A model generated the notes under the pieces. That model did not search any database and had not been told where the DNA came from. It saw nothing but the letters and a program-made list of their open reading frames with translations. Shown here in pieces: positions 17,754 through 41,568 of a DNA stretch of 41,990 bases. A program made the position numbers and the translations under genes. Every line of letters starts with the position of its first letter. Positions within the stretch are counted from its first letter, which is position 1. Origin of the DNA: a virus; IMG/VR virus record IMGVR_UViG_3300017719_000036, positions 1-41,990 of that record; one strand, given 5' to 3'.

Positions 17754-18084
17754 TTTTGTGACAGACACCGGTAGTAAGTTTTATAAAATGAATGTTGATG
17801 ATTTAATGGTAAAGAAAAAGCGTTTAAGTCTTGAAAGGGATTTATGCGCCGAAATGTATAATTTAATGTTATCAAAAGCAAATGCTAGCATTAATAACGA
17901 AAGTAAATACAAATACTATTTAGATGTAGTAGAAGTAATGGAACCTTATGCTAAAGAAACTAAAGAAGAAATTAGGGAAATTAATCGTCAAATATGTAAA
18001 CTGGTGGGCAGGGATACACTAAAAGGTACAGTATATAATTTAGAATGTGAGGACAGGTATGGATTATCCAAACCCGAATTATAA
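17746..18084 (+). CDS. Small helical protein of unknown function
   Basis: 112 aa from ATG 17746, overlapping the oxygenase stop by 8 nt and the next oxygenase start by 26 nt. Predicted almost wholly helical and highly charged ('LMVKKKRLSLERDLCAEM', 'KETKEEIREINRQICKLVG'), with amphipathic spacing compatible with a short coiled coil. An earlier ATG at 17722 is possible but would overlap more deeply. No catalytic motif. Sandwiched between two 2OG oxygenases, it may be an adaptor or assembly partner. Confidence 0.5.
   Translation: MSNFVTDTGSKFYKMNVDDLMVKKKRLSLERDLCAEMYNLMLSKANASINNESKYKYYLDVVEVMEPYAKETKEEIREINRQICKLVGRDTLKGTVYNLECEDRYGLSKPEL
18049..18053 (+). promoter_or_regulatory. Ribosome-binding site choosing the 18059 start
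   Basis: GAGGA lies 5 nt upstream of ATG 18059. The in-frame GTG at 18047 has no comparable site, so the downstream ATG is preferred. Confidence 0.5.
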
Positions 18085-20188: not shown

Positions 20189-20189
20189 T

Positions 20190-25481: not shown

Positions 25482-28400
25482 ATGGCAGATTTTATTCTAG
25501 GTAGACTTAAATTTAAATGGCAAGGCAATTGGGCTTCGAGCCGTGCATATGTCGTAGATGACATTGTAAAATACGGTGCGAACACATATGTTTGTGTAGT
25601 CAATCACACTTCAGGTGGTAATGACCCAGCCTTTTATGCAGACTTATCGGCAACTAAATGGAATCTTCATACAGAGGGTTTAAGATTTTTAGCGGCTGAA
25701 TTTACTGCTTCAACTTTTTATAAATTAAATGATGTTGTAAAATTTGGTGCTCAACAATACAGAGTTACCACACAACACGAATCCGACGGTACAGGTATTT
25801 TAGATACTGCTAACTTTGCAGTTTACAACGAAGGATTACAATTCGAGAATTCATGGGACGCTTCAACATACTACCAAGATGGTGATGTTGTCACATACGG
25901 TGGTTATTCATATACTGCCTTACAAAATCATTCAGGTCAAACACCATCAGGACTTGCCCCTTATTGGGATGTCCTAACAACTGGTTTTAATGCAACAGGC
26001 GATTACAATGCCGCTACAGCATACAAAACTGGTGACACAATGCAATTTGGTGGTTGGTCATATGTTTGTGTTTCAGATACAACAGCAGCTCAAACTCCTT
26101 CATCTCATTCATCTAAATGGGAAGTAATTAACGAAGGATTTAGATGGAACGGAAACTATGCAGGTTCAACAACTTACCAAAAAGGTGATGTAGTTGAGTT
26201 TTCAACATCTTCATATGTAGCAATTGCTTATGATGTTTTAAATATTGACCCGACTGCTGACGCAACTAAATGGAATTTAATGTCACAAGGTGACAGTAAT
26301 AATGTTCTTACCCAAAGAGGTGACATTATGGTCAAAGGTGCTTCTCAAAACCAGAGATTGCACATTGGTCCAAAAGGTTCAGTTTTAACAACAGACGGTG
26401 TTGATGTTAAATGGGGAACAAGTGAAGACGCAACAGTTAAATATGTTGCAAATAACGGTAACGATACTAACGAGGGTACAAAAGCATTTCCTTTCAAAAC
26501 AATTGCTAAGGCATTATCAGTTGTAAATAGCAAAGATGTTGTTGACATTGATACTCAAGCAGGTGGTACAGGCGGAACACCAGGTGTTTATAATGCAATT
26601 ATAGGTACTTCAAGTGGTTCAGGAACAAATGTTGAAGCAAGAGTGACAATTGATGGTTCATCAACTCCTCTAATAGAAATTACAGACGGCGGTTTTAATC
26701 ATTCAGTCGGCGACACAATTACAATTACAAGTGCTCAAATAGGTGGTAATACCGATATTACTTTTAATGTTAAATCAGTAAATGTTGGTGATATTATTTT
26801 TGTTAAGAATGGTGTTTACAGAGAACAATTACCATTAAGAGTTCCACCAAACATTACAGTAAAAGGCGAAAGTTTAAGAGGTACACAAATAAGACCTGCT
26901 TCAGGCAACGGTACTCAAATTGCTACAATTAATAACATTGCTGGTGGTACAGGCGGTACTCCAGGTTCATATCACTTTAAACACACAACTTCAAGTGCTT
27001 CAGGAACAGGTGCTTGTTTTTCAGTAATAAAAGATGGTTCATCTACACCAACAGTTGTTGTATATCATGGCGGTCATTCTTATACTGTCGGCGAAACAAT
27101 AACAGTTGCAGCTTCTGAATTAGGTGGCGGTGTTGATTTAACTGCTGATGTTGCTTCAGTTGAATTGAACAATGCTTCAAAATTCTGGTTAATGAACAAC
27201 AATACAAATTTAGAAACAATGTCAATGCAAGGTTTGACAGGTACTCCAGCAAACTCTGGTGGTACAGGTAAAGCGGCAGTAGTATCTTTAGACCCTACTG
27301 GTAATATTTCAACTGCTTCACCTTATTGTCAAAACTGTACATCAATAAACACAGGTGCTACAGGTATTGAGATTGATGGTGCATTACATAGATACGCAAA
27401 TTCAGGTTCAAACATATCAATTTTAGGAAACGATTTTACTCAAATCAATACAGATGGTCGAGGTGTTCATGCATTGAATAACGGCCGTGGTGAGATGGTT
27501 TCTATCTTCACATATTATTGTGATAAATCATTCTATGCTACAGGCGGTGGTTTCATAAGAGGACTAAACTGTTCATCTGCTTATGGTGAAGAGGGTGCTG
27601 TTGCAGAGGGAGAATATTACGAAGAAGTACCAGTAGAATTCCAAACAAGAGGTAGAATGTTAGAATTTAATTCTACAACTTTCGTTGGTGGTACAAATGA
27701 TGAGAACAACCTTGTAATAGGTCAAACATTAGTTGGTAATACATCTGGTGCAACTGCCACAATTTATTACTTACAGACATCTGCTAAGTATGTTTATATT
27801 GAAAGTATTACAGGCGCATTTACAAAAGGTGAAACTATCACGGCAACAAAAGCAGATAGTTCAACTTATACATTTAACTTAACAACTAACTTTGGTGTAC
27901 CAAATCCTTCAACACAAGGTGATAGTGGTATACAAGGTTTCTTAATACCAATCAAATCAACTGACGGTACATTAGGTTCAACAGGAGTAATTAAACTTGC
28001 TTCTAACTTCTTTACTGGATTTACAGGTGGTGATGGCGATACTCAATATTACAGAATTACGCAAGTATCGGAAGAAGATACATCTGCTCAAACAGCGATT
28101 ATTAAAATTAATCCTGGAATTACATCTGTTCTTGCAAAAGATGATGGTACAACAGTTAAAAATACAAACAGATTTTCAAATGTACGATTAACAGGACATG
28201 ACTTCCTAGATATCGGTACAGGTTCATTTACAGATACAAATTATCCTAATTCAGTTGGTGTCACACAACCTGCTGACCAAGATGATGAAGTATATGAAAG
28301 AACAGGCGGTAGAGTTTACTTTACATCTACTGACCAAAAAGGTGACTTTAGAGTTGGTAATCTTTTCAAAATTCAACAGGCAACAGGTATTGCGACATTG

Positions 28401-29036
28401 AACGCAGACGCCTTTGACCTTTCTGGTTTGACAGAATTACAACTAGGTTCTATTGGTGCTTCACTTGGTGCAACAATTAATGAATTCTCAACAGACGAAA
28501 CTATGGCTGGAGATAGTACAACTTCCGTGCCAGTTGAGAGAGCAATAGTAGGTTATACACAAAGACAAAAAATGGGTGTTGGTCATTTAACAGTACCTAT
28601 TGGTAGTACAGGACAAAGACCATCAAACGCAGGTACAAACTTATTCGCTGGTGGTATCAGATTTAATACAGATAAAAATACATGGGAAGGATACAATAAT
28701 ACTGCTCAATGGACAGGATTAAGTGGATTCTTACCTTGGTCAACAATAGTTGGTGACGGTTCTACCGTGACAACATTAAGTGTTGGTTCAAGAGCCTTTG
28801 TAAATACATCTTCAGCAAAAGCAATTATAAAATTACCTGCTTCACCACAAATTGGTGATACAGTTAGAATAGTTGACTTAGCCGATTTCTTTGCAACAAA
28901 CAATTGTGATGTTCAAGGTAACTCCGAAAAAATTATGGGATTAAGTGCGACATTTGTTATCTCAACAGACAATGCCGGCGTAGCATTAGTTTACACAGGC
29001 ACAACATATGGTTGGAAACTTGAAACGAATGTATAA
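25482..29036 (+). CDS. Large multidomain adhesin/tail fibre with CBM-like repeats and beta-helix
   Basis: 1184 aa. Residues 1-270 hold five copies of a carbohydrate-binding-module-like repeat (pattern W..Y..GDVV.YGG..Y.C......P....W). Residues ~320-345 ('YVANNGNDTNEGTKAFPFKTIAKAL') open a pectin-lyase-type parallel beta-helix. Two gap-free 76-aa repeats begin at residues 360 and 487, inside that region. A 'GQTLVGNTSGATATI' module lies near 745. 'GQRPSNAGTNLFAGGIRFNTDKNTWEGYN' near 1045 is a fibre trimer motif. The last ~95 residues match the middle domain of the three glycine-rich fibres downstream. Predicted to bind surface glycans. Confidence 0.78.
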   Translation: MADFILGRLKFKWQGNWASSRAYVVDDIVKYGANTYVCVVNHTSGGNDPAFYADLSATKWNLHTEGLRFLAAEFTASTFYKLNDVVKFGAQQYRVTTQHESDGTGILDTANFAVYNEGLQFENSWDASTYYQDGDVVTYGGYSYTALQNHSGQTPSGLAPYWDVLTTGFNATGDYNAATAYKTGDTMQFGGWSYVCVSDTTAAQTPSSHSSKWEVINEGFRWNGNYAGSTTYQKGDVVEFSTSSYVAIAYDVLNIDPTADATKWNLMSQGDSNNVLTQRGDIMVKGASQNQRLHIGPKGSVLTTDGVDVKWGTSEDATVKYVANNGNDTNEGTKAFPFKTIAKALSVVNSKDVVDIDTQAGGTGGTPGVYNAIIGTSSGSGTNVEARVTIDGSSTPLIEITDGGFNHSVGDTITITSAQIGGNTDITFNVKSVNVGDIIFVKNGVYREQLPLRVPPNITVKGESLRGTQIRPASGNGTQIATINNIAGGTGGTPGSYHFKHTTSSASGTGACFSVIKDGSSTPTVVVYHGGHSYTVGETITVAASELGGGVDLTADVASVELNNASKFWLMNNNTNLETMSMQGLTGTPANSGGTGKAAVVSLDPTGNISTASPYCQNCTSINTGATGIEIDGALHRYANSGSNISILGNDFTQINTDGRGVHALNNGRGEMVSIFTYYCDKSFYATGGGFIRGLNCSSAYGEEGAVAEGEYYEEVPVEFQTRGRMLEFNSTTFVGGTNDENNLVIGQTLVGNTSGATATIYYLQTSAKYVYIESITGAFTKGETITATKADSSTYTFNLTTNFGVPNPSTQGDSGIQGFLIPIKSTDGTLGSTGVIKLASNFFTGFTGGDGDTQYYRITQVSEEDTSAQTAIIKINPGITSVLAKDDGTTVKNTNRFSNVRLTGHDFLDIGTGSFTDTNYPNSVGVTQPADQDDEVYERTGGRVYFTSTDQKGDFRVGNLFKIQQATGIATLNADAFDLSGLTELQLGSIGASLGATINEFSTDETMAGDSTTSVPVERAIVGYTQRQKMGVGHLTVPIGSTGQRPSNAGTNLFAGGIRFNTDKNTWEGYNNTAQWTGLSGFLPWSTIVGDGSTVTTLSVGSRAFVNTSSAKAIIKLPASPQIGDTVRIVDLADFFATNNCDVQGNSEKIMGLSATFVISTDNAGVALVYTGTTYGWKLETNV
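26559..27167 (+). repeat. Internal duplication of a 76-aa beta domain
   Basis: Copies at 26559-26786 and 26940-27167 both encode 76 residues starting 'AGGTGGTPG' and align without gaps (shared 'Y', 'TSS', 'SGT', 'DGSSTP', 'GG', 'VG.TIT', 'GG'). The nucleotide sequences have diverged, so the duplication is not recent. Confidence 0.75.
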
Positions 29037-29043: not shown

Positions 29044-29051
29044 TATAAATA
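29044..29051 (+). promoter_or_regulatory. T4-type late promoter TATAAATA
   Basis: Exact octamer in the 39-nt gap after the adhesin, followed by GAGGAG and the ATG at 29076; it heads the tandem fibre modules. Confidence 0.7.
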
Positions 29052-29311: not shown

Positions 29312-30682
29312 ATGGCACAAATAGACTTAGGTAAATTAAAATTAAAAAATCAAGGCACATGGGTTTCAGGCACAACCTATGAAGTAGATGACTTTGTAGT
29401 TTACACCGATTCCGGTGTGACTTCTACATTTATTTACATAAATGCTTCGGCAGCTGCAGGTGAAGTTCCTTCAAGTGGCGGTACAGTAAATAGTTCACAT
29501 TGGCAAATAATGGCCAAAGGTACAGACGCTGTAGGTATGTCTTTTGGTACAACTGAAACAGCAGATTTTACTGCTTCTGGTGCAACAGGATATTTTATAG
29601 ATACAACAGCTGGTGTTATTTCAATGACATTACCTGCTTCTCCTTCAAAAGGTGACCAAATACAGATTATTGACAAAATGAAAACTTTTCATACTAATCA
29701 TTTAAAATTACTTGCAAACGGAAATTATATTCAAGGAGAACCTGATGACTGGTCTTTTGTAAAAAAAGGAACAAATGTTATGCTTACTTATGGTGACGCA
29801 AACATGGGTTGGCAGTTTTCAAGTTTTTCACATGATGACCAAGGTAGTATGAATAACGCTGTAAGTTCAGACATAGGTTCTAAAAGATATATTAGAGGAA
29901 CAAGTGACGCTGAAGAAGTTTACCTAGACGGCGACTATATGGTTCACAAATTTTTATCTTCAGGTACTTTTACAGTACATGAAGTCGGAACGGATTCAGT
30001 ACACGGTGCTGTTGTCAGATACATGATTGTAGGTGGCGGCGGTTCAGGTGGTACTCACCACTCTGGTGGTGGAGGCGCTGGTGCTTTTAGAGACACAGGC
30101 GCATACAATCATACCGTATCTGCTCAAGCATACACAATTACAGTTGGTGCTGGTGGTTCATTGAGAACAAGTGGCGGACATGGTAACAACGGTAGTAGTT
30201 CAACATTTGACAGTATAACCTCAGCAGGTGGCGGAGGCGGTGGCTCTTATAATAATAGAGGAAGAGATGGTGGTTCCGGCGGTGGTGCTGGTCACTCTCA
30301 TACTCATGGCGGTGCTACAGGTCAAGGTTCAGGAACAAGAGGCGGAGACCACAGCTCACACACAATGGGTGGTGGCGGAGGTTCTACACATAGAGGCGGT
30401 GACGCTTATGGCGGAGGACACCAAGGTGGCTCAGGCGGTTCTGGAAATAGTTCAGATATTACAGGAAAACAATCACACTTTTCAGGTGGCGGTGGTGCTG
30501 GAACACATCAACACGGTGGTGGCGGAGGCGGAGGTCTCGGCGGCGGCGGTGAAGGACAAGGTGGTTCTGCTAGAGATAATTCAGGCGGCGGCGGAGGTGG
30601 AACAGACGGTTCATCAGGTCAAGCTAATTATGGTGGCGCTGGCGGTTCAGGTATCGTTGTAATAAGATATAAGGTAAGATAA
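29312..30682 (+). CDS. Glycine/histidine-rich fibre, module copy 1
   Basis: 456 aa. Residues 1-70: CBM-like repeat ('GKLKLKNQGTWVSGTTYEVDDFVVY'). Residues ~75-180: a beta domain ('ATGYFIDTTAGVISMTLPASPSKGDQIQIID' to 'GWQFSS') also found at the end of the 1184-aa adhesin. Residues ~195-456: an 'AEEVYLDGDYMVHKFLSSGTFTV' linker, then a glycine-rich domain with many histidines, including HxHxH at His328-His332, ending 'GIVVIRYK'. Architecture and tandem paralogues indicate a host-recognition adhesin. The 151-aa partner starts 1 nt downstream. Confidence 0.75.
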   Translation: MAQIDLGKLKLKNQGTWVSGTTYEVDDFVVYTDSGVTSTFIYINASAAAGEVPSSGGTVNSSHWQIMAKGTDAVGMSFGTTETADFTASGATGYFIDTTAGVISMTLPASPSKGDQIQIIDKMKTFHTNHLKLLANGNYIQGEPDDWSFVKKGTNVMLTYGDANMGWQFSSFSHDDQGSMNNAVSSDIGSKRYIRGTSDAEEVYLDGDYMVHKFLSSGTFTVHEVGTDSVHGAVVRYMIVGGGGSGGTHHSGGGGAGAFRDTGAYNHTVSAQAYTITVGAGGSLRTSGGHGNNGSSSTFDSITSAGGGGGGSYNNRGRDGGSGGGAGHSHTHGGATGQGSGTRGGDHSSHTMGGGGGSTHRGGDAYGGGHQGGSGGSGNSSDITGKQSHFSGGGGAGTHQHGGGGGGGLGGGGEGQGGSARDNSGGGGGGTDGSSGQANYGGAGGSGIVVIRYKVR

Positions 30683-30683
30683 T

Positions 30684-31139
30684 ATGCATGTAGGAAAAAT
30701 AGATAGTAATAATTTAGTTGTAGAAACTTTAATTATAAAACTTGAAAAAATAATTTCAAATAACGGAACAGTTACCGAAGCTTCTTGTCAAGCTTGGTGT
30801 GCTCCAAGATTTGGTGCAGATTTCACTTATATTCCTGAAAGTATTTCAAATAATTTACCAAATATTGGAATGACATTTGATAGAGCAAAGATGGCATTTC
30901 ACGAAGGATTACCTTTAGATATTGAAGGTAATGAATGTACTTCATGGGTATGGAATACTGAACATTTTAAATTTCATGCTCCACATATTCACGGTAGTGC
31001 AGCTGGCAAAAAACAAATTTTATGGAGAGAAAGTAATTCAAGATGGTATTGTAGAGAAAAAGGTGAAACAGACGGAAACTATTTCACTTGGAACACAACA
31101 TCATCAACATGGGAAGATACTGGCTCAGCAACATTATAG
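30684..31139 (+). CDS. Small partner of glycine-rich fibre, copy 1
   Basis: 151 aa. Pattern: 'VGKIDSNNLVVETLI' N-terminal strand, then 'LPNIGMTFDRAKMAFHEGLP', 'CTSWVWNTEHFKFHAPHIHG' and a C-terminal 'RWYCREKGETDGNYFTWNTTSSTWE' repeat. The same order recurs in the partner proteins at 32541 and 34403. The Trp/Tyr-rich C-terminus resembles small fibre-partner proteins ('W.W......PP.......W') of marine phages. It could be a fibre-tip adhesin, hinge or chaperone; no direct evidence chooses between them. Confidence 0.6.
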   Translation: MHVGKIDSNNLVVETLIIKLEKIISNNGTVTEASCQAWCAPRFGADFTYIPESISNNLPNIGMTFDRAKMAFHEGLPLDIEGNECTSWVWNTEHFKFHAPHIHGSAAGKKQILWRESNSRWYCREKGETDGNYFTWNTTSSTWEDTGSATL

Positions 31140-31142
31140 AAA

Positions 31143-31150
31143 GATAAATA
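31143..31150 (+). promoter_or_regulatory. Late-promoter-like GATAAATA
   Basis: One mismatch to TATAAATA, between module 1 and module 2, followed by GGATAACAA and the ATG at 31160. It could allow module-specific late expression. Confidence 0.4.
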
Positions 31151-31159
31151 GGATAACAA

Positions 31160-32539
31160 ATGGCTACGATAGATTTAGGTAAATTAAAAATGACAAACAG
31201 AGGCACTTGGTCCTCTGGTACTGCTTATGTTGTTGATGATATCGTTCAATATACGGACGGTGGAACACTATCAACATATCTTGCTGTCGCAGGTTCGACA
31301 GGTCAAGCACCTTCTTCAGGTGGTACCGAAAATGCTTCTTTCTGGAAATTCATGGCAAAAGGTACAGACCAAATTGCCATATCTTACAATGCTGTATCAA
31401 CAACAGACTTTACAGTTTCATCTTCAAATGCATATTTTGTAGATACATCAGCTGGTGCAATAACGGTAACTTTACCGGCTTCGCCTAGTGATGGTTCATT
31501 TTTCAAATTATCGGATTATAAAAGAACATTTCAAACTAACAATGTACTCTTAGCTGCTAACGGAAATAATATCGAAGGAGAACCAGACGATTTTATTTTA
31601 TCAGGCAGAGGTACTGCTATAGAAATGGCATACAATGGTACAGGTGGTAGAGGTTGGAAGTTTATGTCTTACACAACCGAAGGCCAATCTTCAAGAGTAA
31701 ATCATGCCAATCAAGGTATGGGTTCAAAAAGATGGATTCATGCTTCTTCGGATGCTGATGAAGTTTACATGGATGGTAATGATATGGTTCACAGATTTTT
31801 AACTTCAGGAACATTTACTGTTGCTTCAGTAGGTACTGATTCCTTATACGGCGATAAGATAGAATACTTAATCGTTGGTGGAGGAGGCGGCGGTGGTTCT
31901 CACCACGGTTCAGGAGGTGGTGCTGGTGGTTATCGTGCTAACTCGGCATACGATTTTACAGTCACAGCACAAGCATATTCAATTACAATTGGCGCTGGTG
32001 GTTCTCATCAAACTGGAAATGGTTATGGTAATAACGGTTCTGCTTCAACGGCATTTGGAATGACAAGTGACGGTGGCGGAGGCGGAGGCGGTAATCCTAA
32101 CTCTGGTCGTTCAGGCGGTTCAGGTGGCGGTGGCGCTCACTCTGGTGGCCATGGTAACGCAACTGGAAATGGAACAGGTCACAGAGGCGGCTCAAACGGT
32201 CATCACACAGGTGGTGGCGGAGGCGGTGCTGGAGAACCTGGCGCAGACCATTATGGTAATCACATGGCAGGTCATGGCGGTAGAGGAGTAGAAAATGATA
32301 TCGAAGGCCGAGGAAAATCTTATGACAATCACTACGCAGGTGGCGGCGGCGCAGCCGGTCACAATCATACTTCTTGCCCAGCAGGAGGTGTAGGAGGCGG
32401 CGGCCAAGGTGGTTCAGGATACGGAATTGACGGCACAGGTGGTGGCGGCGGAGGAACAGACGGTTCTTCAGGTGGTCATAGACGAGGCGGTCAAGGTGGA
32501 GACGGTATTGTAGTAATCAGATATAGGGCGAAAGAATAA
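31160..32539 (+). CDS. Glycine/histidine-rich fibre, module copy 2
   Basis: 459 aa, paralogous over its whole length to the fibres at 29312 and 33010. CBM-like repeat at residues 1-70 ('GKLKMTNRGTWSSGTAYVVDDIVQY'); beta domain at ~75-180 ('AYFVDTSAGAITVTLPASPSDGS', 'GRGWKFMSY'); 'DADEVYMDGNDMVHRFLTSGTFTV' linker; glycine-rich domain from ~235 ending 'GIVVIRYRAKE'. It has fewer HxH motifs than its paralogues but contains 'GSHHG' and 'GHHTGGG' and a cysteine in 'HTSCPAGG'. Probably an alternative receptor-binding fibre. Confidence 0.74.
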   Translation: MATIDLGKLKMTNRGTWSSGTAYVVDDIVQYTDGGTLSTYLAVAGSTGQAPSSGGTENASFWKFMAKGTDQIAISYNAVSTTDFTVSSSNAYFVDTSAGAITVTLPASPSDGSFFKLSDYKRTFQTNNVLLAANGNNIEGEPDDFILSGRGTAIEMAYNGTGGRGWKFMSYTTEGQSSRVNHANQGMGSKRWIHASSDADEVYMDGNDMVHRFLTSGTFTVASVGTDSLYGDKIEYLIVGGGGGGGSHHGSGGGAGGYRANSAYDFTVTAQAYSITIGAGGSHQTGNGYGNNGSASTAFGMTSDGGGGGGGNPNSGRSGGSGGGGAHSGGHGNATGNGTGHRGGSNGHHTGGGGGGAGEPGADHYGNHMAGHGGRGVENDIEGRGKSYDNHYAGGGGAAGHNHTSCPAGGVGGGGQGGSGYGIDGTGGGGGGTDGSSGGHRRGGQGGDGIVVIRYRAKE

Positions 32540-32540
32540 T

Positions 32541-32999
32541 ATGTCAAACACAGGTAAATATATAGCAAAAATAAATGCTGATAATATTGTTGAACAAGTT
32601 ATTGTAGTCAATTCAAGAATTATTAGAAACGCAGATGGCACAATCAATCAATCTAAAGTAGATGAAGTAGGTACTGAATTTTTAGGTGCCGGAACATTTG
32701 TAGGTTGGGTAGCAGATGGAACATTAATGAATAAACCAAACGCAGGTGATGTTTACGATAACACTTTAAAAAAGTTTCATAGTCCAAGACCTAATGATAA
32801 AAATGGACAACCTTGTACAAGTTGGACTATAAATAGTGATACAATGGAGTGGCAATCTCCTCATAATTGTAGTAAAGAAGGTAGAATGAAAATTGATTGG
32901 GACGAGGCTGAACAAAAATGGTATTCACTCCCAGCAGGTGGTACAGATATGACGGAATCAGTTTGGAATGCAAGCACTAATGCTTGGGAAACAGTTTAA
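32541..32999 (+). CDS. Small partner of glycine-rich fibre, copy 2
   Basis: 152 aa, 1 nt after its fibre. Shares with the other partners an N-terminal 'IAKINADNIVEQVIVV' strand, a 'YDNTLKKFHSPRP' linker, 'PCTSWTINSDTMEWQSPHNCS' and a Trp-rich end ('DWDEAEQKWYSLPAGG', 'VWNASTNAWE'). The two 'W....' repeats look like small beta hairpins. The conserved pairing with one fibre each suggests a dedicated binding partner or tip. Confidence 0.6.
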   Translation: MSNTGKYIAKINADNIVEQVIVVNSRIIRNADGTINQSKVDEVGTEFLGAGTFVGWVADGTLMNKPNAGDVYDNTLKKFHSPRPNDKNGQPCTSWTINSDTMEWQSPHNCSKEGRMKIDWDEAEQKWYSLPAGGTDMTESVWNASTNAWETV

Positions 33000-33009
33000 G
33001 GAATAAAAA

Positions 33010-34401
33010 ATGGCGATAATAGATATAGGTAAATTAAAAGTCACAAACCAAGGTGTTTGGAGTTCAGGCACAGCTTATGAGGCAGATGACTTCGTACAAT
33101 ATAATTTTGGTGGAGTTGTATCAACTTATATCGCAGTAGCAAATAGTACAGGTGAAACACCAGAAGGTGGTGCTGGAGTAAATACAAGTTTCTGGCAATT
33201 AATGGCAAAAGGTACGGATGCAATTGCAATGTCATTTAATGTTGCACAGACAACTAACTTTACTGCTGTTGCAAAAAGTGGTTATATGGTAGACACAACA
33301 AGTGGTGTTATTACAATGACTATGCCGGCAAGTCCAGCAAGAGGTGACCTAGTAGAGGTTACTGATTACAGAGGAACATTCTCAATTAATCCTTTAACTA
33401 TCAATAGAAATGGTAGTAAAATTATGGGTCATGCAGATGATTGGTGCATAGCAGCTAAAGGCGCTACGGTATTATTTCAATTTGATGATGGTGCTTCAGG
33501 TGATGAAGGTTGGAGAATTACAAAATTTAATTCCGATTACGATAATGAATACGGAGGTCAACAAATGCGTGGACCTGGTGTTAAAAGTGTCGGTACAAAA
33601 AAATATTTAATTGCAACAAGTGACGCTGAACAAGTTTATATGGATGGTGAAGATGTTGTACATAAATTCGAAACAAGTGGTAACTTTAAAGTTCACTCAT
33701 TAGGTACAGACGCAACTCTCGGCGATAAAGTAGAATATTTAATCGTTGGCGGTGGCGGAGGCGGTGGTACACACCACGCTGCTGGTGGTGGCGCAGGTGG
33801 TTATAGAGCTAATAGTACACAAGACCATGTAGTCACATCACAAAATTATACAGTCACAGTTGGTACAGGTGCATCCGAAAAAACAAGTAATGGATATGGT
33901 AACAACGGTGGTAATTCAGAATTCGATACTTTAGTTTCTGCTGGAGGCGGAGGCGGCGGTGGTACAAATGGTGCAGGTCGTTCAGGCGGTTCAGGCGGAG
34001 GTGCGGCTCACTCACATACTCACGGTAATGCAAATGGCCAAGGAACAGGTCACAGAGGCGGAGACCATACTCAACACACTCACGGCGGAGGCGGTGGTGC
34101 TCATAGAAGAGGTGCAGACCATTATGGTTCACACCAGGGTGGCCATGGCGGAAGAGGTGAAGTAAACGATATTACAGGTTCAGAAACATGGTACGCCGGT
34201 GGCGGAGGTGCTTCAGGACATAATCATACATCAGCAGGCGCTGGCGGTGACCCGTCTGGTGGAATAGGTTCTGGTGGATACGGTGCAAGAAATACCGGAG
34301 GCGGTGGCGGAGGTACAGACGGTACTTCAGGTCCACAGCAATTCGGTGGTCAAGGCGGTTCAGGTATTGTTGTAATCAGATATAAAGGCAGAGAGAATTA
34401 A
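33010..34401 (+). CDS. Glycine/histidine-rich fibre, module copy 3
   Basis: 463 aa, same domain order: CBM-like residues 1-70 ('GKLKVTNQGVWSSGTAYEADDFVQY'), beta domain ~75-185 ('GYMVDTTSGVITMTMPASPARGD', 'GDEGWRITKF'), 'DAEQVYMDGEDVVHKFETSGNFKV' linker, glycine-rich domain to 'GIVVIRYKGREN'. The glycine-rich part is the most His-rich of the three, with HxHxH at 34009-34023 and HTQHTH at 34066-34083. These recall iron-coordinating HxH motifs of the T4 gp37 fibre tip, but are in a non-homologous background. Confidence 0.74.
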   Translation: MAIIDIGKLKVTNQGVWSSGTAYEADDFVQYNFGGVVSTYIAVANSTGETPEGGAGVNTSFWQLMAKGTDAIAMSFNVAQTTNFTAVAKSGYMVDTTSGVITMTMPASPARGDLVEVTDYRGTFSINPLTINRNGSKIMGHADDWCIAAKGATVLFQFDDGASGDEGWRITKFNSDYDNEYGGQQMRGPGVKSVGTKKYLIATSDAEQVYMDGEDVVHKFETSGNFKVHSLGTDATLGDKVEYLIVGGGGGGGTHHAAGGGAGGYRANSTQDHVVTSQNYTVTVGTGASEKTSNGYGNNGGNSEFDTLVSAGGGGGGGTNGAGRSGGSGGGAAHSHTHGNANGQGTGHRGGDHTQHTHGGGGGAHRRGADHYGSHQGGHGGRGEVNDITGSETWYAGGGGASGHNHTSAGAGGDPSGGIGSGGYGARNTGGGGGGTDGTSGPQQFGGQGGSGIVVIRYKGREN

Positions 34402-34402
34402 A

Positions 34403-34918
34403 ATGATAGAAGTAGCTAAATTAGATAGTAATAATAAAATTGTTAATACTTTTGCAATTCACAAAGCATATAGTAAAGACGCTACAGGTACAATTAGCCA
34501 ATCAAAGATTAAAGAATATTGTGTTGCAACTTTTGGTGGTACAGCAGATGAATACTTAGGAAACTTACCTAATATTGGCGGTACGGCAAACAAAGACGAT
34601 TTCTATGACGCAGATAAAAACTGTTTTCATGGAGGAAGACCTATCGATATGGCAGGTTCTCCATGTTCTTCATGGACATTAAATGCAGCTACAGGTCAAT
34701 GGGAACCACCTCACAACTATGTAAGACAATTAGATGATGGTGCTGATTTTAATTATGAAACTGTTGCAGGTGTACAATACGGAATTTTTACTTGGAGAGA
34801 AGAAACAAACTCTTGGTATGCAAAAAAACATTCTGAATATAAAGATGGCAATACATCAGCCGCATTTTACAAGTTCGACAATACAGATAAGACTTGGAAA
34901 TCACATACTGATTTCTAA
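34403..34918 (+). CDS. Small partner of glycine-rich fibre, copy 3
   Basis: 171 aa, 1 nt after its fibre. Conserved blocks: 'VAKLDSNNKIVNTFAI', 'LGNLPNIGGTANKDDFYDADKNCFHGGRP', 'PCSSWTLNAATGQWEPPHNY' and 'FTWREETNSWYAKKH'. It is about 20 residues longer than the other partners, with an extra acidic segment ('QLDDGADFNYETVAG') and a last 'KTWKSHTDF' block. A perfect 16-nt palindrome follows its stop, perhaps closing the unit. Confidence 0.6.
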   Translation: MIEVAKLDSNNKIVNTFAIHKAYSKDATGTISQSKIKEYCVATFGGTADEYLGNLPNIGGTANKDDFYDADKNCFHGGRPIDMAGSPCSSWTLNAATGQWEPPHNYVRQLDDGADFNYETVAGVQYGIFTWREETNSWYAKKHSEYKDGNTSAAFYKFDNTDKTWKSHTDF

Positions 34919-34953: not shown

Positions 34954-35532
34954 ATGATGAAAAACTTTAATGATGGTTTTATTGATGTAATAGATAATTT
35001 TCTTCCAAAATATACATTTCAAAGAATACAAGAATTAGTTTTATCTACTGATTTTTTTTGGCATTGGACAGAAAACGATTACAACGAAGCAGACCCCACT
35101 CTAAAAAATATAAAAGAACAAGACATTGGTACATACATGATGTCACATGTTTTATATATTCCTCACAAAGAAACAAGTCCATTATATAAATCATTCCTTC
35201 CTATCACGGATAGTGTGAGGGAACATGGGTATTCTACTATTAGACCATTAAAATTTAAACTAAATATGTACACCAATCAAGGTAAACATAATCATCTAGC
35301 TAAACACAAAGATTTTTATGAAGTAGATAAATCGGAGAAGTTTATTACAGGTGTTTTAGGTTTAACAAATGATAATGGCGCTACTGTAATTGGTGATAAA
35401 GAATTTAAAACAAAAGAAAATACTATGGTTCTTTTTGATGGTAATTTGTTGCATGGTGGATATACACAAACAGATACCAAAAGAAGAGTTATATTAAATG
35501 TAAACTATGAGGTTAGAAAATGGGTAAATTAA
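34954..35532 (+). CDS. Fe(II)/2-oxoglutarate-dependent oxygenase
   Basis: 192 aa. The iron triad is His118-Lys-Asp120 ('LAKHKDFYEV') and His167 ('GNLLHGGYTQ'), with Arg177/Arg178 ('TKRRVILNVNYEV') for 2OG. The 'KFKLNMYTNQGKHNH' strand before the HxD is typical of phage 2OG enzymes. The C-terminus overlaps the start of the halogenase gene by 13 nt, so the two are probably translated together and may act on the same target. Substrate unknown. Confidence 0.8.
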   Translation: MMKNFNDGFIDVIDNFLPKYTFQRIQELVLSTDFFWHWTENDYNEADPTLKNIKEQDIGTYMMSHVLYIPHKETSPLYKSFLPITDSVREHGYSTIRPLKFKLNMYTNQGKHNHLAKHKDFYEVDKSEKFITGVLGLTNDNGATVIGDKEFKTKENTMVLFDGNLLHGGYTQTDTKRRVILNVNYEVRKWVN

Positions 35533-37133
35533 ACGATATCAAAATCATTGGTGGTGGTTCTGCTGGTTGGATGACAGCAACAACACTAATAAGAAAATTG
35601 CCGAAAGGCCATAAAATAACATTAATCGAAAGTCCTAATATCGCAACCGTAGGTGTTGGAGAAAGTACAATTGGCGGAATATCTAATTGGTTAGCTTCAG
35701 TTAAGCTTCATTCAAAATTAAACGAGTTTGTAAAACTTACAGACGGTACTATTAAATTGAGTATTCGTTTCGAAGACTTTTACAAAAAAGGTGACGGCGG
35801 GTTTCATTACCCATTTGGCCTGCCGGTTACCCTAGGTAATAGTTTTGGTACAAATGATTGGTATGTTAAAAAGATGAAATATCCAGAAACACATCCTTCA
35901 GATTTTGCAACACAGATGTATGGTCAAATGGCCATGGTCAATGCAAACACATTAACAAACAAAGAAACAAATATACCTTTTAATTGGGCAGGCGACAAAG
36001 CATTACACTTTGACGCAACTAAATTTGGATTATATTTAAAAGATACTGTATGTATTCCTGAAGGAGTACAACATGTCAAAGCAAATGTTCAAGATGTAAT
36101 TACAAAAGACGGTGCAGTTGATAAAGTTATATTAGATAATGGCGAAGAAGTCACGGCAGATTTGTTTATTGATTGTACAGGTTTCAAATCGTTATTATTA
36201 GGCAAAGCATTAAATGAAGAATTCATAGATTATTCTCCTATCTTACCAAACAATTCAGCATGGGCGACAAGATTACCTTATAAAAATAGAAAAAAAGAAA
36301 TGAATTTATATACAGATTGTTTAGCTATGAATAATGGTTGGGTATGGAAAATACCTTTATGGACTAGGTGGGGAAGTGGTTATGTATATTCAAACAAATA
36401 CATTTCAGACGAAGACGCATTACAAGAGTTTAAAGACTTTATTAAAAAGAAAGATTATACTAGTGCTAATGTAGATGAATTAGAATTTAAAAATATTAAG
36501 ATGAGAGTTGGCCGTCATAAAAGATTGTGGGTCAAAAATGTATGTGCTATTGGATTAGCAGGTGGGTTTATAGAACCATTAGAAAGTAATGGTTTATATT
36601 CAGTACATGAATTTTTAAATGAATTGGTAAAAGCAATCGGTGGCGATAGAGCAGGTCACTATACAGCATATGATAGAAACGAATTTAATAATAGTGTGAC
36701 CTCAAAGTTTGACGGTTTTGCAGCCTTTGTTGCTATGCATTATTCATTATCACATAGAGATGATACAGAATATTGGAGAGATGTTAATGAAAGAGATTAT
36801 GTTGAATTATGGGAAAAAATGGGTCATTCAAAACATAATCCATTTGAGGATTCTTTTAGAAGAAAAAATCTTGAAGGTTCTTGGGGTCTGTATGAAGGAT
36901 TAAATTGTATTGCTCCAGGAATGAGATGGAATATTTTAAGTGAAGGCCTTGTAAGTTTAACGGATGCCGTAGAAAATCCAGTACAAAATTATAATACTTT
37001 TTGGGAAGAGAGTATTAGAAAATTAAATGCAAGAAGTAAGAGTTGGTCAGAGATAGCTAAGAGACTACCAAGCACTTACGAATTTATTAGAGATGAGTTT
37101 TTTGATGGTAAAGATGAAATCACACCCGAATAA
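35520..37133 (+). CDS. Flavin-dependent tryptophan-halogenase-like enzyme (VirX1-like)
   Basis: 537 aa, full family length. FAD-binding GxGxxG at residues 11-16 ('GGGSAGWMTA'), 'GVGEST' near 45-50, catalytic Lys79 ('GTIKLSIRFEDF'; the same number as in PrnA), the halogenase signature WxWxIP at 274-279 ('GWVWKIP'), and 'GGFIEPLESNG' near 348-358 containing the conserved glutamate. All key residues are present, so it is probably active. FADH2 must come from elsewhere, since no flavin reductase gene is in the window. Cyanophage VirX1 is the known viral member and iodinates diverse aromatic substrates. Here flanking oxygenases and fibres suggest a protein or peptide substrate, but a free small molecule is equally possible. 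Confidence 0.9.
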   Translation: MGKLNDIKIIGGGSAGWMTATTLIRKLPKGHKITLIESPNIATVGVGESTIGGISNWLASVKLHSKLNEFVKLTDGTIKLSIRFEDFYKKGDGGFHYPFGLPVTLGNSFGTNDWYVKKMKYPETHPSDFATQMYGQMAMVNANTLTNKETNIPFNWAGDKALHFDATKFGLYLKDTVCIPEGVQHVKANVQDVITKDGAVDKVILDNGEEVTADLFIDCTGFKSLLLGKALNEEFIDYSPILPNNSAWATRLPYKNRKKEMNLYTDCLAMNNGWVWKIPLWTRWGSGYVYSNKYISDEDALQEFKDFIKKKDYTSANVDELEFKNIKMRVGRHKRLWVKNVCAIGLAGGFIEPLESNGLYSVHEFLNELVKAIGGDRAGHYTAYDRNEFNNSVTSKFDGFAAFVAMHYSLSHRDDTEYWRDVNERDYVELWEKMGHSKHNPFEDSFRRKNLEGSWGLYEGLNCIAPGMRWNILSEGLVSLTDAVENPVQNYNTFWEESIRKLNARSKSWSEIAKRLPSTYEFIRDEFFDGKDEITPE

Positions 37134-37722
37134 TAAAAATAAAAACTTTATTGCTGGTTGGTATATAGATAAATCTGTTTGTGATGATTTAATAGATTTT
37201 TTTGAAGATACTACAACTGAAAAGTGGAAAGGCGGTTTTGGAAAAGACGATATTCCAAATCCACTTATTAAAGATAGTACAGACACCGTTTTTTGGCCTA
37301 ATACAAATGACAAGAGATGTATGAATTATTATAACGAGTTAGAAAAATGTGTACCTGAATATATAAAATTATATCCTGAAACTAACGAAACTGAAAAATG
37401 GTCAATTTGTAGATATGGTACACAAATACAAAAATATAATCCAGGTGGTGCTTATTTCAGAGAACATTTTGAAAGAGCGTTAGGACCAGTTTCAGATAGA
37501 TTTTTAGTTTACATGACATTTTTAAATGATGTGACAGATGGTGGCGGTACATATTTTAAGTATCAAGATTTAGAAATTAAAGCCGAAAAGGGTTTGACAA
37601 TAATATGGCCTACTGATTTTACTCATACTCATAAGGGTGTAGTATCAAATACTCAAACAAAATACATTGCAACTGGATGGTATGCATTTGAGGATATGGG
37701 AGAATTTAAGAATTATGCATAA
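37114..37722 (+). CDS. Prolyl-4-hydroxylase-like 2OG oxygenase
   Basis: 202 aa from ATG 37114. In-frame ATGs at 37093 and 37105 are alternatives, and all overlap the halogenase end. The P4H-type core: 'IQKYNPGGAYFREHFE' with iron ligands His118 and Glu120 (HxE in place of HxD, as often in phage members), 'VTDGGGTYFKYQDL', 'KGLTIIWPTDFTHTHKG' with distal His173, and Lys183 ('TKYIATGWY') as 2OG anchor, as in prolyl hydroxylases. Likely hydroxylates a peptidyl residue. The HxE variant should be kept in mind, since loss of the carboxylate geometry can change activity. Confidence 0.82.
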   Translation: MKSHPNNKNKNFIAGWYIDKSVCDDLIDFFEDTTTEKWKGGFGKDDIPNPLIKDSTDTVFWPNTNDKRCMNYYNELEKCVPEYIKLYPETNETEKWSICRYGTQIQKYNPGGAYFREHFERALGPVSDRFLVYMTFLNDVTDGGGTYFKYQDLEIKAEKGLTIIWPTDFTHTHKGVVSNTQTKYIATGWYAFEDMGEFKNYA

Positions 37723-38299
37723 TATAAAAGAATTAACTATGGAACAGCATAAGAATGCTGAACGACAAGAGTTTGTAAAAACTTTAATGTCAGGTAATAT
37801 TAATAAACAATTGTACGCAACATATCTTTTTAATCAGTTAAAGTGTTATTCTGTATTAGAAAAATATGCTTTAGCAAACTCTTTGTTTTTAGATTTGCCT
37901 GGAATAGAAAGAGCCCCACACTTGCATTATGACTATGAGGCATTATGGACAAACGAATATGAAAAACCACCTGTACAAGAAAGTACAGAAAAGTATGTAA
38001 AACACATAGAGACTATCAAAGATGACGCTGAAAAATTATATGCTCATATCTATGTAAGACATATGGGCGATTTATCTGGTGGTCAAATGATTAGAAAGAA
38101 AACACCAGGACCTAATAGATACTATAAATTTGCAGGTCTACAACAACAAGAATACAAAACAATAATCAAAGAAAAAGTTGAAGCATACATGAATGTTTAT
38201 CAAATAAATGTTTTAGCTGAAGCAAGGTTTTGTTTTGAAAGTGCAACACAATTATTTAAAGAGATGAGGAGTTTGGATGCTTTGGGACATTTTAATTAA
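37715..38299 (+). CDS. ho1: Heme oxygenase
   Basis: 194 aa from ATG 37715, the start that leaves the usual short helix before the proximal histidine; longer in-frame starts overlap the P4H gene more. His12 in 'TMEQHKNAERQEF' is the proximal heme ligand. 'YVRHMGDLSGGQMI' (residues ~113-126) is the distal-helix signature with the flexible GDLSGG. 'YLFNQLKCYSVLE' is the typical second helix. It converts heme to biliverdin IX-alpha, CO and Fe(II), using reduced ferredoxin. Together with the bilin reductase downstream (overlap 23 nt) it forms a heme-to-bilin unit known from marine phages. Confidence 0.9.
   Translation: MHNIKELTMEQHKNAERQEFVKTLMSGNINKQLYATYLFNQLKCYSVLEKYALANSLFLDLPGIERAPHLHYDYEALWTNEYEKPPVQESTEKYVKHIETIKDDAEKLYAHIYVRHMGDLSGGQMIRKKTPGPNRYYKFAGLQQQEYKTIIKEKVEAYMNVYQINVLAEARFCFESATQLFKEMRSLDALGHFN
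38267..38271 (+). promoter_or_regulatory. Ribosome-binding site supporting the 38277 start
   Basis: AGGAG lies 5 nt before ATG 38277, inside the end of the heme oxygenase gene; the later in-frame ATGs at 38313 and 38322 lack such a site. Confidence 0.6.
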
Positions 38300-38963
38300 G
38301 AATACTAATACTATGATAGACATGCTCAACGCTTCATGTGAAGAGTATAAAGAACCAGGTATGGAAAGATTTAACAACGAAGAGTTTGGCTGGGTCAATA
38401 GAACATGGAAGAATAAAGATATACGAAGAGCACATGTTGATGTAGTTGATGTAAGAGATACTAAAAAATTATGGATGTGTCATGTATGTTTATTTCCAAA
38501 TACTACAAATGGCGGACCTATATATGGTTTTGATGTAATATGTGGCGCTAGAAAAATCACAGGTGCCTTTCACGATTTCAGTCCATTACTTAAAAAAGAA
38601 CACCCTTTGACAACATGGTTTGTAGATGATGTAAAACATTATAAACCTAGCAAAGATAGAGAATTGCCTGATTGGGCAAAAGCAATTTTTAGTCCTGGTA
38701 TGATAGCAGCTGGTAATATACAAGAAGATGAAGAAGCTCAACAAGTATGTGATATATCTTTAGGAACATTAAATCACTATATAAGACATATAGGTGAATA
38801 CAATGGTGATAGTGATGAAAAAGATGTTATTGAGGCACAAAACTATTACTGTACTCATCAACAAATGAATCCACATACACCAAAAGTTATGGAAAGACTT
38901 GGTTTACCAGAGGAAGACATTAAGTTGTTTTGTTCCGATAATCTATTCCCCAAGATAAAATAA
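38277..38963 (+). CDS. pcyX: Ferredoxin-dependent bilin reductase, PcyX-like
   Basis: 228 aa. FDBR hallmarks: 'GPIYGFDVICGARKITGAFHDFSPLL' (Asp86 and Asp100 in the substrate-pocket strands) and the C-terminal 'YYCTHQQMNPHTPKVMERLG' helix with the conserved Q..N..T pattern. The short N-terminus ('YKEPGMERFN.EEFGWVNRTW') fits PcyX/PcyA rather than PebA. PcyX was described from uncultured oceanic phages next to a heme oxygenase gene and makes phycoerythrobilin from biliverdin. The same pairing is seen here. It needs host or phage ferredoxin. PebS or PcyA remain alternatives until aligned. Confidence 0.83.
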   Translation: MLWDILIKNTNTMIDMLNASCEEYKEPGMERFNNEEFGWVNRTWKNKDIRRAHVDVVDVRDTKKLWMCHVCLFPNTTNGGPIYGFDVICGARKITGAFHDFSPLLKKEHPLTTWFVDDVKHYKPSKDRELPDWAKAIFSPGMIAAGNIQEDEEAQQVCDISLGTLNHYIRHIGEYNGDSDEKDVIEAQNYYCTHQQMNPHTPKVMERLGLPEEDIKLFCSDNLFPKIK

Positions 38964-38967: not shown

Positions 38968-38975
38968 TATAAATA
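38968..38975 (+). promoter_or_regulatory. T4-type late promoter TATAAATA upstream of gp13
   Basis: Exact octamer in the 41-nt gap between the bilin reductase gene and gp13, followed by a purine-rich leader; it drives the neck/terminase operon and marks the end of the accessory region. Confidence 0.72.
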
Positions 38976-39004: not shown

Positions 39005-39811
39005 ATGGCAAAACCATCAACAAGACAACAACTAAAGGAATACGCTTTAAGAGCATTAGGACATCCTGTAATAGAGATTAACGCAGATGATGACCAACTT
39101 GAAGATAGAATAGACGAAAGTTTACAGTATTTCGCACAATATCATTATGACGCTATTAGACGGACTTATTTAAAGTACCAGTTAACAGAGGCTGAAAAGG
39201 CTAGATTAACAGGTAACTCTAGTGAGACTGTGACTGTGGATTCTACAACCACAGAATGGTTAGAACAAAACAATTACTTGAATGTTCCCGAAGGTGTTTT
39301 GTCTGTAATTAATATCTTTCCTTTTTCAAACAAAGGTAATCTAAACTTATTTGATGTAAGATACCAATTAAGATTAAATGACCTATACGACTTCTCATCT
39401 ACAAGTGTAATCAATTATGATGTTGTTATGAGACAACTAGACTTTTTGGACCACATACTAGTAGGAGAAAAACCTTTAAGATTTAATCAAAACGATAACA
39501 GACTGTATATTGACATGGATTGGAAAAATGATTTAGCAGTCGGCGAATATCTAGTTATTGAGTGTTATAGAGAATTAGACCCTACAAAACATTCAGATGT
39601 TTATAATGACTTATATCTAAAAAGATATGTCACAGCAAAATTCAAAGCACAATGGGGTGCCAACTTATCTAAATTTAATGGTGTTGCCATGTTAGGTGGT
39701 GTTTCATTAAATGGTGCAGAAATTTATTCACAAGCATTAGCTGAGATTGAAAAACTAGAAACAGATATTAGAAGTACATACGAATTAAATCCAGCAATGA
39801 TGATAGGATAA
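39005..39811 (+). CDS. gp13: Neck protein gp13 (T4-like)
   Basis: 268 aa. The start 'AKPSTRQQLKEYALRALGHPVIEINADDDQLEDRIDESLQYFAQYHYD' is characteristic of gp13 in marine T4-like phages ('R..L..YCLR.LG.PV.EINV.DDQ..D..D.A...F..YH.D'). gp13 joins the portal-proximal neck of the completed head to the tail. Its fixed neighbours gp14, gp15 and gp16 follow in the same order as in T4. The 'KAQWGANLSKFNGVAMLGGV' helix near the end is also typical. Confidence 0.92.
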   Translation: MAKPSTRQQLKEYALRALGHPVIEINADDDQLEDRIDESLQYFAQYHYDAIRRTYLKYQLTEAEKARLTGNSSETVTVDSTTTEWLEQNNYLNVPEGVLSVINIFPFSNKGNLNLFDVRYQLRLNDLYDFSSTSVINYDVVMRQLDFLDHILVGEKPLRFNQNDNRLYIDMDWKNDLAVGEYLVIECYRELDPTKHSDVYNDLYLKRYVTAKFKAQWGANLSKFNGVAMLGGVSLNGAEIYSQALAEIEKLETDIRSTYELNPAMMIG

Positions 39812-39815: not shown

Positions 39816-40637
39816 ATGCCAGTTAATCACTACTTTCAGGCAGGTAAGGGCATTGGTAACCACGCAGAGAAAAGGTTACACGAAGATTTAATCGTTGAAG
39901 GCCTAAAGATTTATGGCCAAGATGTTCACTACCTACCTCGTACATTAGTTAATCAAGACCTTATTTTAGGAGAGGACACCTCTTCTCGTTTTGATGATAG
40001 CTATGCTATCGAAATGTACTTTGAAACAAATGAAGGTTTTGCTGGCGACCAAGAATTAATCAACAAGTTTGGTTTAGAAATAAGAGACGATACAACCTTA
40101 ATGGTTGCTAAGAGAAGTTGGGATTATTTAGTTGGTAATAAATCAAATCTAATAGCTGCAGGTAGACCAAATGAGGGTGATGTAATTTATGTACCCTTAA
40201 TGAATTCGTTTTTTGAAATACTATTTGTAGAAGACCAAGAGCCTTTCTTTCAATTAGGCAACTTACCAGTTTACAAACTTCGTGTCACTCGTTGGGAATA
40301 TTCAAACGAACAAATCAATACAGGCGTTGAGGGTATTGATAAGGCTGAAGATGAGTATTCATTAAATTACTTTAAACATAAGATGTCATTAGAAGATGGC
40401 CAGGCTGCATTAGATGGCGAAGGCTCAATTATGTTAGAACAAGGTTATAACACAGGTAAAAATGCTTTCTTAATGTTAGAAACTTATGTTGGAGAAAGTC
40501 CAGAATTTACACAAACACAATCAGCATATGCAGACAATCTAAATTTAAATACAGAAGCGGGTTATACAACTGAAAGTCTTGCAGACGATATCATAGACTT
40601 TAGCGAAAGAAACCCATTTGGGGAGATTGATGAATAA
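39816..40637 (+). CDS. gp14: Neck protein gp14 (T4-like)
   Basis: 273 aa. 'NHYFQAGKGIGNHAEKRLHEDLIVEGLKIYGQDVHYLPR' and 'RFDDSYAIEMYFETNEGFAGDQELINKFGLEIRDD' are the typical N-terminal half of gp14. 'LRVTRWEYSNEQINTGVEGID' is the conserved C-terminal region. gp14 forms the neck collar with gp13. The stop overlaps the next start (TAATG), showing a compact late operon. Length is close to that of T4 gp14 (256 aa). Confidence 0.92.
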   Translation: MPVNHYFQAGKGIGNHAEKRLHEDLIVEGLKIYGQDVHYLPRTLVNQDLILGEDTSSRFDDSYAIEMYFETNEGFAGDQELINKFGLEIRDDTTLMVAKRSWDYLVGNKSNLIAAGRPNEGDVIYVPLMNSFFEILFVEDQEPFFQLGNLPVYKLRVTRWEYSNEQINTGVEGIDKAEDEYSLNYFKHKMSLEDGQAALDGEGSIMLEQGYNTGKNAFLMLETYVGESPEFTQTQSAYADNLNLNTEAGYTTESLADDIIDFSERNPFGEIDE

Positions 40638-40804
40638 TGGATAGAGATAGAACAAAACAATTATTAGAACATACTAATAAAATGAATAAACAAAAAAAAG
40701 AACTAGAGATGTCTAAAAATTTAAGAAAAGAAGTTGAAATTGGTGCAACAGGCACACAAAGATATAGAATTAAAAACGGACCTAATAAAGGTAAGATACT
40801 ATAA
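40637..40804 (+). CDS. Small basic ORF between gp14 and gp15
   Basis: 55 aa (start 'MDRDRTKQLLEHTNKMNKQK'). The frame is bounded by 1-nt overlaps on both sides (TAATG at 40635 and at 40802), which is strong evidence that it is translated. It is rich in Lys/Arg/Gln; the first half is a charged helix and the end reads 'QRYRIKNGPNKGKIL'. I do not recognise a function; location suggests a neck or tail completion accessory. Confidence 0.65.
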   Translation: MDRDRTKQLLEHTNKMNKQKKELEMSKNLRKEVEIGATGTQRYRIKNGPNKGKIL

Positions 40805-41568
40805 TGTTTGGTAACCATTATTACAATCAAAGTTTTAGAAAGTTGACCGTAGCGTTTGGTCAAATTTTTAATAATATACTTGTACAAACAAAAAACAAAA
40901 CTGGTGGTGTGACAGGTCGAATGAGAGTACCTTTAGCATATGCACCAAAAGAAAAGTTTATACAAAGATTAGACCAACAATCTGATTTAAATAACAGAGA
41001 GTTTGCTGTTGTATTGCCTAGAATGGGATTTGAGATTACAGGTTTGGCATATGATGGTTCAAGAAAACTAACTAGAGTACAGAAAAGAGTTAAGGTTAAA
41101 AATGATGAGACTATGAATTTTAATTATCAACCTGTACCTTATGATATTAGTTTTAATTTATATACATTTACAGCAACTGCCGAAAATGGTTTGCAAATTA
41201 TTGAACAGATATTACCCTACTTTCAACCAGATTATACGGTAACAATTAATGCCGTTCCTGAAATGGATATTAAAACAGATGTACCTATTATTCTAAATGG
41301 TGTACAATATGAAGATACTTATGATGGTAGTTTTACAAATAGAAGAGCAGTAATTTATACATTAGGATTTACAGCAAAAACATATCTATATGGTCCTATG
41401 AATAACAGTAAGATTATTAGAAAGGTAACAGCTGACGCTTCTGCTGATTTACCAAATGCATTAACACAAGAGAAAATAGTTATTCAACCTAATCCAACAA
41501 GTGCAGACGCAGATGACGATTTCGGATTTACAACAACAATAACTTTTTATGAGAACGGTGAACAATAA
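40804..41568 (+). CDS. gp15: Tail sheath stabiliser/completion protein gp15 (T4-like)
   Basis: 254 aa. 'MFGNHYYNQSFRKLTVAFGQIFNNI' matches T4 gp15 ('MFGYFYNSSFRR...GDLFSNI'). 'MRVPLAYAPKEKFIQRL', 'LPRMGFEITG.AYD' and 'IIEQILPYFQPDYTVTIN' also correspond to T4 gp15 in order. gp15 caps the tail tube and sheath and accepts the neck. The stop overlaps the gp16 start (TAATG). Confidence 0.93.
   Translation: MFGNHYYNQSFRKLTVAFGQIFNNILVQTKNKTGGVTGRMRVPLAYAPKEKFIQRLDQQSDLNNREFAVVLPRMGFEITGLAYDGSRKLTRVQKRVKVKNDETMNFNYQPVPYDISFNLYTFTATAENGLQIIEQILPYFQPDYTVTINAVPEMDIKTDVPIILNGVQYEDTYDGSFTNRRAVIYTLGFTAKTYLYGPMNNSKIIRKVTADASADLPNALTQEKIVIQPNPTSADADDDFGFTTTITFYENGEQ

Follow-up and report, generated by a model that had tools for sequence, protein, structure and literature searches.

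The window, a virus record of 41,990 bases, carries on its plus strand a gene encoding a heme oxygenase of 194 aa (hemO, 37715..38299; PF01126, E 4.2e-22, far above the cut-off) followed by an ATG-initiated gene encoding a ferredoxin-dependent bilin reductase of 228 aa (pcyX, 38277..38963; PF05996, Fe_bilin_red, E 1.2e-17, far above the cut-off). The overlap of the two genes and the strong ribosome-binding site of the second, both described in an earlier sequence-only reading, were confirmed: 23 nt are shared, and the motif GAGGAG (38266..38271) lies within the 3' end of hemO, 5 nt 5' of the pcyX ATG. The corresponding motif of hemO is weaker (GGGAG, 12 nt upstream). The ATG at 37715 is equivalent to the annotated hemO start of Pelagibacter phage Mosig, while the ORF list gives a TTG at 37667 instead.

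All neighbouring genes discussed here are on the same strand. Upstream of hemO are an Asp/Arg-hydroxylase-like 2OG oxygenase (34954..35532; PF05118, 4.7e-4, below its cut-off; phrog_274, 2.7e-30, a group bearing the PHROG name endonuclease V), a flavin-dependent tryptophan halogenase-like protein (35520..37133; PF04820, 1.3e-101) and a 2OG-Fe(II) oxygenase whose gene overlaps the start of hemO (37093..37722; PF13640, 1.7e-7; phrog_61, 6.8e-39). Downstream of pcyX are homologues of the neck proteins gp13 (39005..39811; phrog_211, 5.3e-42; 80% identical to that of Mosig) and gp14 (39816..40637; PF11649, 1.4e-34) and of the tail sheath stabiliser gp15 (40804..41568; PF16724, 7.6e-78). These Pfam and PHROG matches bear out the placement of the cassette between a halogenase/oxygenase island and gp13, in a T4-like structural context.

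Further upstream, three tandem genes for Gly-rich tail fibres are each followed by a gene for a phrog_7759 protein (29312..34918), a fibre-plus-partner cassette being thus present in triplicate. They are preceded by a gene for a tail fibre of 1184 aa (25482-29036) that bears carbohydrate-binding modules of the chitin type (CBM_5_12), the best of them lying near the N terminus. An island of radical-SAM enzymes interspersed with 2OG-Fe(II) oxygenases was identified at 10349-21131, the enzyme at 15545-17251 possessing a B12-binding domain. No tRNAs were found in the window.

Identity of the two enzymes

Heme oxygenases of the HO-1 type possess a proximal His and a distal helix with the sequence GDLSGGQ. 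The HemO of the window has both (His12, and GDLSGGQ at residues 118-124), and alignment showed that His12 is shared by 77 of 78 heme oxygenase rows, with a gap in the remaining one, and that Gly118, Asp119, Gly122 and Gly123 are present in all 78. The predicted reaction is the conversion of heme to biliverdin IX-alpha, CO and Fe2+.

The top PDB match of the reductase (phmmer) was 5owg, the PcyX EBK42635 (8e-108; 147 of 227 residues identical, 65%), with PcyA second (7e-12). Residue Asp55, which has been named as specific to PcyX (PMC11480375) and whose equivalent in PcyA is Glu76 (PMC10151467), is present in the window and in 72/72 PcyX rows of an alignment from which exact duplicates and ORFs of less than 215 aa were excluded; cyanobacterial, cyanophage and alphaproteobacterial PcyA have Glu at this position. 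His69 and Asp86, which correspond to the catalytic His88 and Asp105 of PcyA, were likewise found in all 72 rows. In a tree of 48 rows, among them 24 PcyX loci (10 chosen by hand and 14 at random), the window grouped with the contigs L005 and L030 in a clade (96/97) that also contains Mosig and EBK42635 and excludes alphaproteobacterial PcyA, cyanophage PcyA, PebS, PebA and PEBB; PebS was split off at 100/100 on a long branch, the outgroups being long-branched according to a warning of the tool. The predicted model of the protein (pLDDT 94) was closest to 5owg (Z 28.0, rmsd 0.8, 181 residues aligned), with lower scores for PcyA (Z 25.8), PebA (24.0) and PebS (19.1). The pair proposed from the letters, a heme oxygenase with a PcyX-like reductase, is thus upheld by the Pfam matches, the 5owg match, Asp55 and the clade of EBK42635, and the alignment and tree against PcyX, PcyA, PebS and PebA that had been suggested as a check grouped the window with PcyX. 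A PebS or PcyA identity for the reductase was ruled out by trees and residues. The enzyme would therefore be expected to convert biliverdin to phycoerythrobilin (PEB), a pink pigment, in a four-electron reduction.

Comparison of the window with L030, a near relative, gave dN/dS values of 0.068 for hemO, 0.128 for pcyX and 0.078 for gp13, with ranges over all pairs of 0.05-0.36, 0.005-0.18 and 0.04-0.20, respectively, the distant pairs being near synonymous saturation. Judging from these ratios, hemO and pcyX are under purifying selection. The invariance of the catalytic residues over 72 PcyX and 78 heme oxygenase rows, together with dN/dS values of 0.07-0.13, indicates that the gene pair is more than a chance occurrence.

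Among 50,697 phage records, a single close match to the reductase was found, that of Pelagibacter phage Mosig (68%; host HTCC1062), in which hemO adjoins the reductase gene and the neck genes follow. A tree of concatenated gp13-15 joined the window and Mosig at 100/100 and set five cyanophages apart at 100/100; phages HTVC008M (SAR11) and Melnitz (OM43) were next, with a branching order of low support (40.5/63). Because gp13-15 join the window with Mosig, with HTVC008M next, a SAR11 host is likely for the window phage, as judged from phage kinship; the proximity of the OM43 phage Melnitz counts against a firm assignment. The non-photosynthetic host considered by the sequence-only reading agrees with this, as the nearest isolate infects SAR11 bacteria, which are non-photosynthetic, the host again being taken from phage kinship only.

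A cyanobacterial host, in which PEB would go to the phycobilisomes as proposed for PebS, appears highly improbable. Mosig and the compared cyanophages are all recorded as Kyanoviridae, and PcyX has been described to make usable PEB in Synechococcus 7942 (PMC13197396), both of which favour such a host. Against it are the 100/100 separation of the cyanophages in the gp13-15 tree, the distance of the window PcyX from cyanophage PcyA and PebS, and the finding that in the five cyanophages a structural or hypothetical gene, not hemO-pcyX, precedes gp13. A cyanophage host was accordingly rejected on trees and residues, and the grouping with PebS or PcyA and a cyanobacterial host, named beforehand as the outcome that would speak against the reading, was not observed: the window falls in a separate clade and its nearest isolate is a SAR11 phage.

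A conserved slot upstream of gp13 and late promoter motifs

A scan of viral contigs identified at least 545 stretches encoding relatives, of which the best 80 were kept and examined together with earlier loci, giving 82 loci of the window type. Directly 3' of pcyX, gp13 was found in 74/82 loci; in the remaining eight, a 2OG gene (3) or another gene (2) was inserted, or the contig ended (3). Similarly, hemO was directly 5' of pcyX in 73/82, the other nine having a contig end (4), an unlabelled ORF (4) or a 2OG gene (1) at this position. Viewed from the gp13 side, 73 of 80 loci were decidable, with pcyX upstream in 40 and fibre or other genes in 33, which suggests that the cassette is common but optional and occupies a fixed position. 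The gene hemO was also present in 30/30 of the pcyX-bearing gp13 loci that reach far enough, the other 10 of the 40 being cut contigs. As the loci kept are the most similar ones, these fractions are valid for near relatives only, among which the slot of the cassette is nearly invariant.

The gene preceding hemO was found to vary. The window, Mosig and many other loci have a 2OG-Fe(II) oxygenase there, while among 71 loci 19 have a helical protein of 218-257 aa and 15 a small protein without assigned function; the link to oxygenases is therefore not constant. The helical protein (L062, 6190-6936, and 18 other loci) has a weak likeness to the heme-oxygenase/TenA fold. Modelled as a possible bilin-binding globin, it gave Foldseek E values of 0.5 or worse; on a second look the top rows were heme-oxygenase and TenA folds (Z of about 11, within the helical-bundle background), with no globin among the matches listed.

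Several other arrangements were observed. A protein of 353-358 aa is inserted in the pcyX-gp13 gap of two contigs (L033, 993-2069; L060, 1262-2323); its start resembles a signal peptide and it is porin-like by eye, with no PHROG match and, for L033, on which Pfam was run, no Pfam match. In other phages (L006, 1443-4204; L007, 7939-10687; L110), clpS precedes a run of genes in which a 2OG oxygenase and a carbon-nitrogen hydrolase stand between hemO and pcyX. L108, a 335-kb contig in a Neomarinimicrobiota MAG, encodes a PcyX of 54% identity and a T4-type gp23 capsid protein, and probably represents a jumbo phage that was assigned to a bacterial bin. Pairs of hemO and an FDBR gene also form a second phage lineage (L009-L021), often beside a DUF454 membrane protein, which has Ser at position 55 of the reductase (8 rows) and lacks the Asp of the GDLSGG motif in the three heme oxygenase rows aligned.

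The late promoter of phages T4 and KVP40 has been given as TATAAATA (PMC2984593). In the window this motif is located in the pcyX-gp13 gap (38968..38975, plus strand), where it was also found at 74/74 loci; it lies at most 70 nt from gp13 in 79/79 cassette loci. It was found near the start of hemO in only 2/67 loci and before gp14 in 0/68. The motif can be assigned to gp13, since 35/39 gp13 loci without a cassette also have it, some of these contigs being too short to exclude a cassette. With gp13 possessing its own late promoter motif after pcyX, the cassette falls outside the transcription unit of gp13.

Where at least 1.5 kb of sequence 5' of hemO was available (50 loci), a copy of the motif was found there in 36, the nearest one being intergenic in 36/36; none was found in the available upstream sequence of the other 14. 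These copies head a run of fibre or oxygenase genes that ends in hemO-pcyX, and their intergenic position suggests that hemO-pcyX forms the 3' end of a late fibre/oxygenase operon. In the window, the nearest intergenic copy upstream is at 29044..29051 (plus strand), a predicted operon head by its position, from which the operon would run to pcyX and would include the three fibre genes; the copy at 32828 is within an ORF. At one locus (L043), where the oxygenases are inverted, the motif is 44 nt upstream of the hemO ORF.

The nine copies of TATAAATA in the window are all on the plus strand and are without excess in number (7.35 expected). Seven of them are situated 10-45 nt before a listed start, as against 3.7% of positions (binomial 3e-9, approximate as two copies overlap). 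Sigma-70 promoters and terminators predicted between 32400 and 39300 were not in excess of shuffles. Furthermore, the annotated proteins of Mosig include a late sigma factor and an accessory protein of late transcription. The earlier description of the cassette as lying in a late structural region thus holds for the T4-like late context and needs amending as to the unit, because the cassette ends the preceding fibre/oxygenase operon and is outside that of gp13.

Late-promoter prediction has been described in a survey as unsuccessful in pelagimyophages (PMC7029224). The occurrence of TATAAATA before gp13, with and without the cassette, provides a usable anchor for such promoters, and the fixed slot together with the motif indicates when (late) and on which transcript the cassette should be looked for.

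Possible uses of the pigment

Taken together, we consider it probable (about 0.7) that the window belongs to a T4-like phage from the Mosig (SAR11) group and carries a functional hemO-pcyX cassette, with PEB as the product and expression from a late operon, the benefit to the phage being a separate matter. HemO would open the heme of the host to biliverdin, with release of iron and CO, and ferredoxin would feed PcyX, with four electrons reducing biliverdin to PEB. With hemO-pcyX placed last in a late gp55-type operon with tail fibres and Fe(II) oxygenases, the pathway would run late in infection. Mosig encodes a 2Fe-2S ferredoxin (PF00111) that could feed PcyX. A phage ferredoxin was found on 0/17 IMG/VR contigs, all fragments, and none was found from HTVC008M and Melnitz; in the reverse test, PcyX was found on 0/8 contigs with a ferredoxin, again all fragments.

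As to the benefit, our leading guess, a tentative one, is heme-iron salvage with biliverdin removal: the iron would supply the Fe(II) enzymes of the phage, and PcyX would remove biliverdin and so pull the reaction forward. In both the window and Mosig, genes for Fe(II) oxygenases belong to the operon predicted for hemO-pcyX, but the varying gene before hemO (no oxygenase in 19 and 15 of 71 loci) counts against this benefit. The constant pairing of hemO and pcyX counts against iron as the sole benefit, since salvage alone would have no need for PcyX, yet selection on PcyX is about as strong as that on gp13.

This pairing in 30/30 far-reaching loci, along with the invariance of the PcyX-specific Asp55 (72/72), could also mean that PEB itself is wanted, as a chromophore or ligand of a phage or host protein in light sensing or as a virion-bound pigment. 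Relatives from bacteria of the Acetobacteraceae adjoin a phytochrome-like ORF (by eye), and tail-fibre operons often end in the cassette. Nevertheless, this use is somewhat less probable than iron salvage with biliverdin removal: no bilin-binding family is among the 25 of 27 Pfam families listed for 76 hypothetical proteins of Mosig, the phycobiliprotein domain (PF00502) was found in 0/12 records, and the PHY domain (PF00360) in 0/32 genomes of the small-genome family of G003, putatively SAR11. A narrower form, in which PEB made late is bound by a phage protein of the same stage, perhaps a fibre or another component of the virion from the same operon, is a long shot; if true, it would mean a pigment-bearing virion or a virocell photoreceptor outside photosynthesis.

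Bilins are radical scavengers, and PEB or biliverdin might act as an antioxidant, or the pathway as an electron sink, in late-infected cells. The annotation of Mosig includes peroxiredoxin, rubrerythrin and glutaredoxin besides the 2Fe-2S ferredoxin, in keeping with such a role. Heme oxygenase would also release redox-active iron, however, and no antioxidant gene was recognised adjoining the cassette in the window from Pfam and PHROG matches, making this use rather unlikely. Heme-iron salvage with biliverdin removal is retained as the first candidate among the benefits.

Comparison with known systems

Cassettes of hemO-pcyX, in part with alaS, have been published from marine contigs of likely pelagiphage origin, with a comparison to Mosig and a gp13 phylogeny (PMC11480375), and the cassette of the window thus joins a known kind; the slot statistics and the promoter arrangement are additions of the present analysis. 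The same work calls the purpose of the cassette enigmatic and asks for what reason a light-harvesting pigment is made by a phage whose host is not photosynthetic. The gene order first described for the window stands, but it is less unusual than was implied, as hemO-pcyX-gp13 occurs in Mosig and in many contigs and as pelagiphage-like cassettes of hemO-pcyX are published. AlaS was tried as a third cassette gene and rejected, TIGR01821 being found in 0/20 related records, mostly fragments, which did not include the window.

The freshwater phage CB_2 has, like the window, a phage-borne pair of hemO and an FDBR gene (vHemO/vPcyA, with AlaS); its enzyme yields PCB and is without Asp55, which the PcyX of the window has (PMC11480375). 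Cyanophage PebS (P-SSM2), a one-enzyme PEB synthase, has its fold in common with the window PcyX, but belongs to a separate clade, has Asn where the window PcyX has His69 and matches the model with a Z of 19.1 as against 28.0 for 5owg. EBK42635, the protein of 5owg from an oceanic phage metagenome, retains Asp55, His69 and Asp86 and shares the 96/97 clade with the window, although in a different subclade. The contig closest to it in the tree, L092, shares the hemO-pcyX-gp13 slot with the window, but has the helical protein before hemO where the window has a 2OG oxygenase.

The closest system is that of Mosig EXVC030M (MT647606), in which the order 2OG oxygenase, hemO, pcyX, gp13 and gp14 is the same as in the window, and hemO and pcyX are 64% and 68% identical to those of the window, respectively. 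The islands differ in that the window has the halogenase, whereas additional 2OG genes and one with a ferrochelatase annotation are present in Mosig. Mosig on HTCC1062 is an existing isolate with the cassette, which makes the question of the pigment testable.
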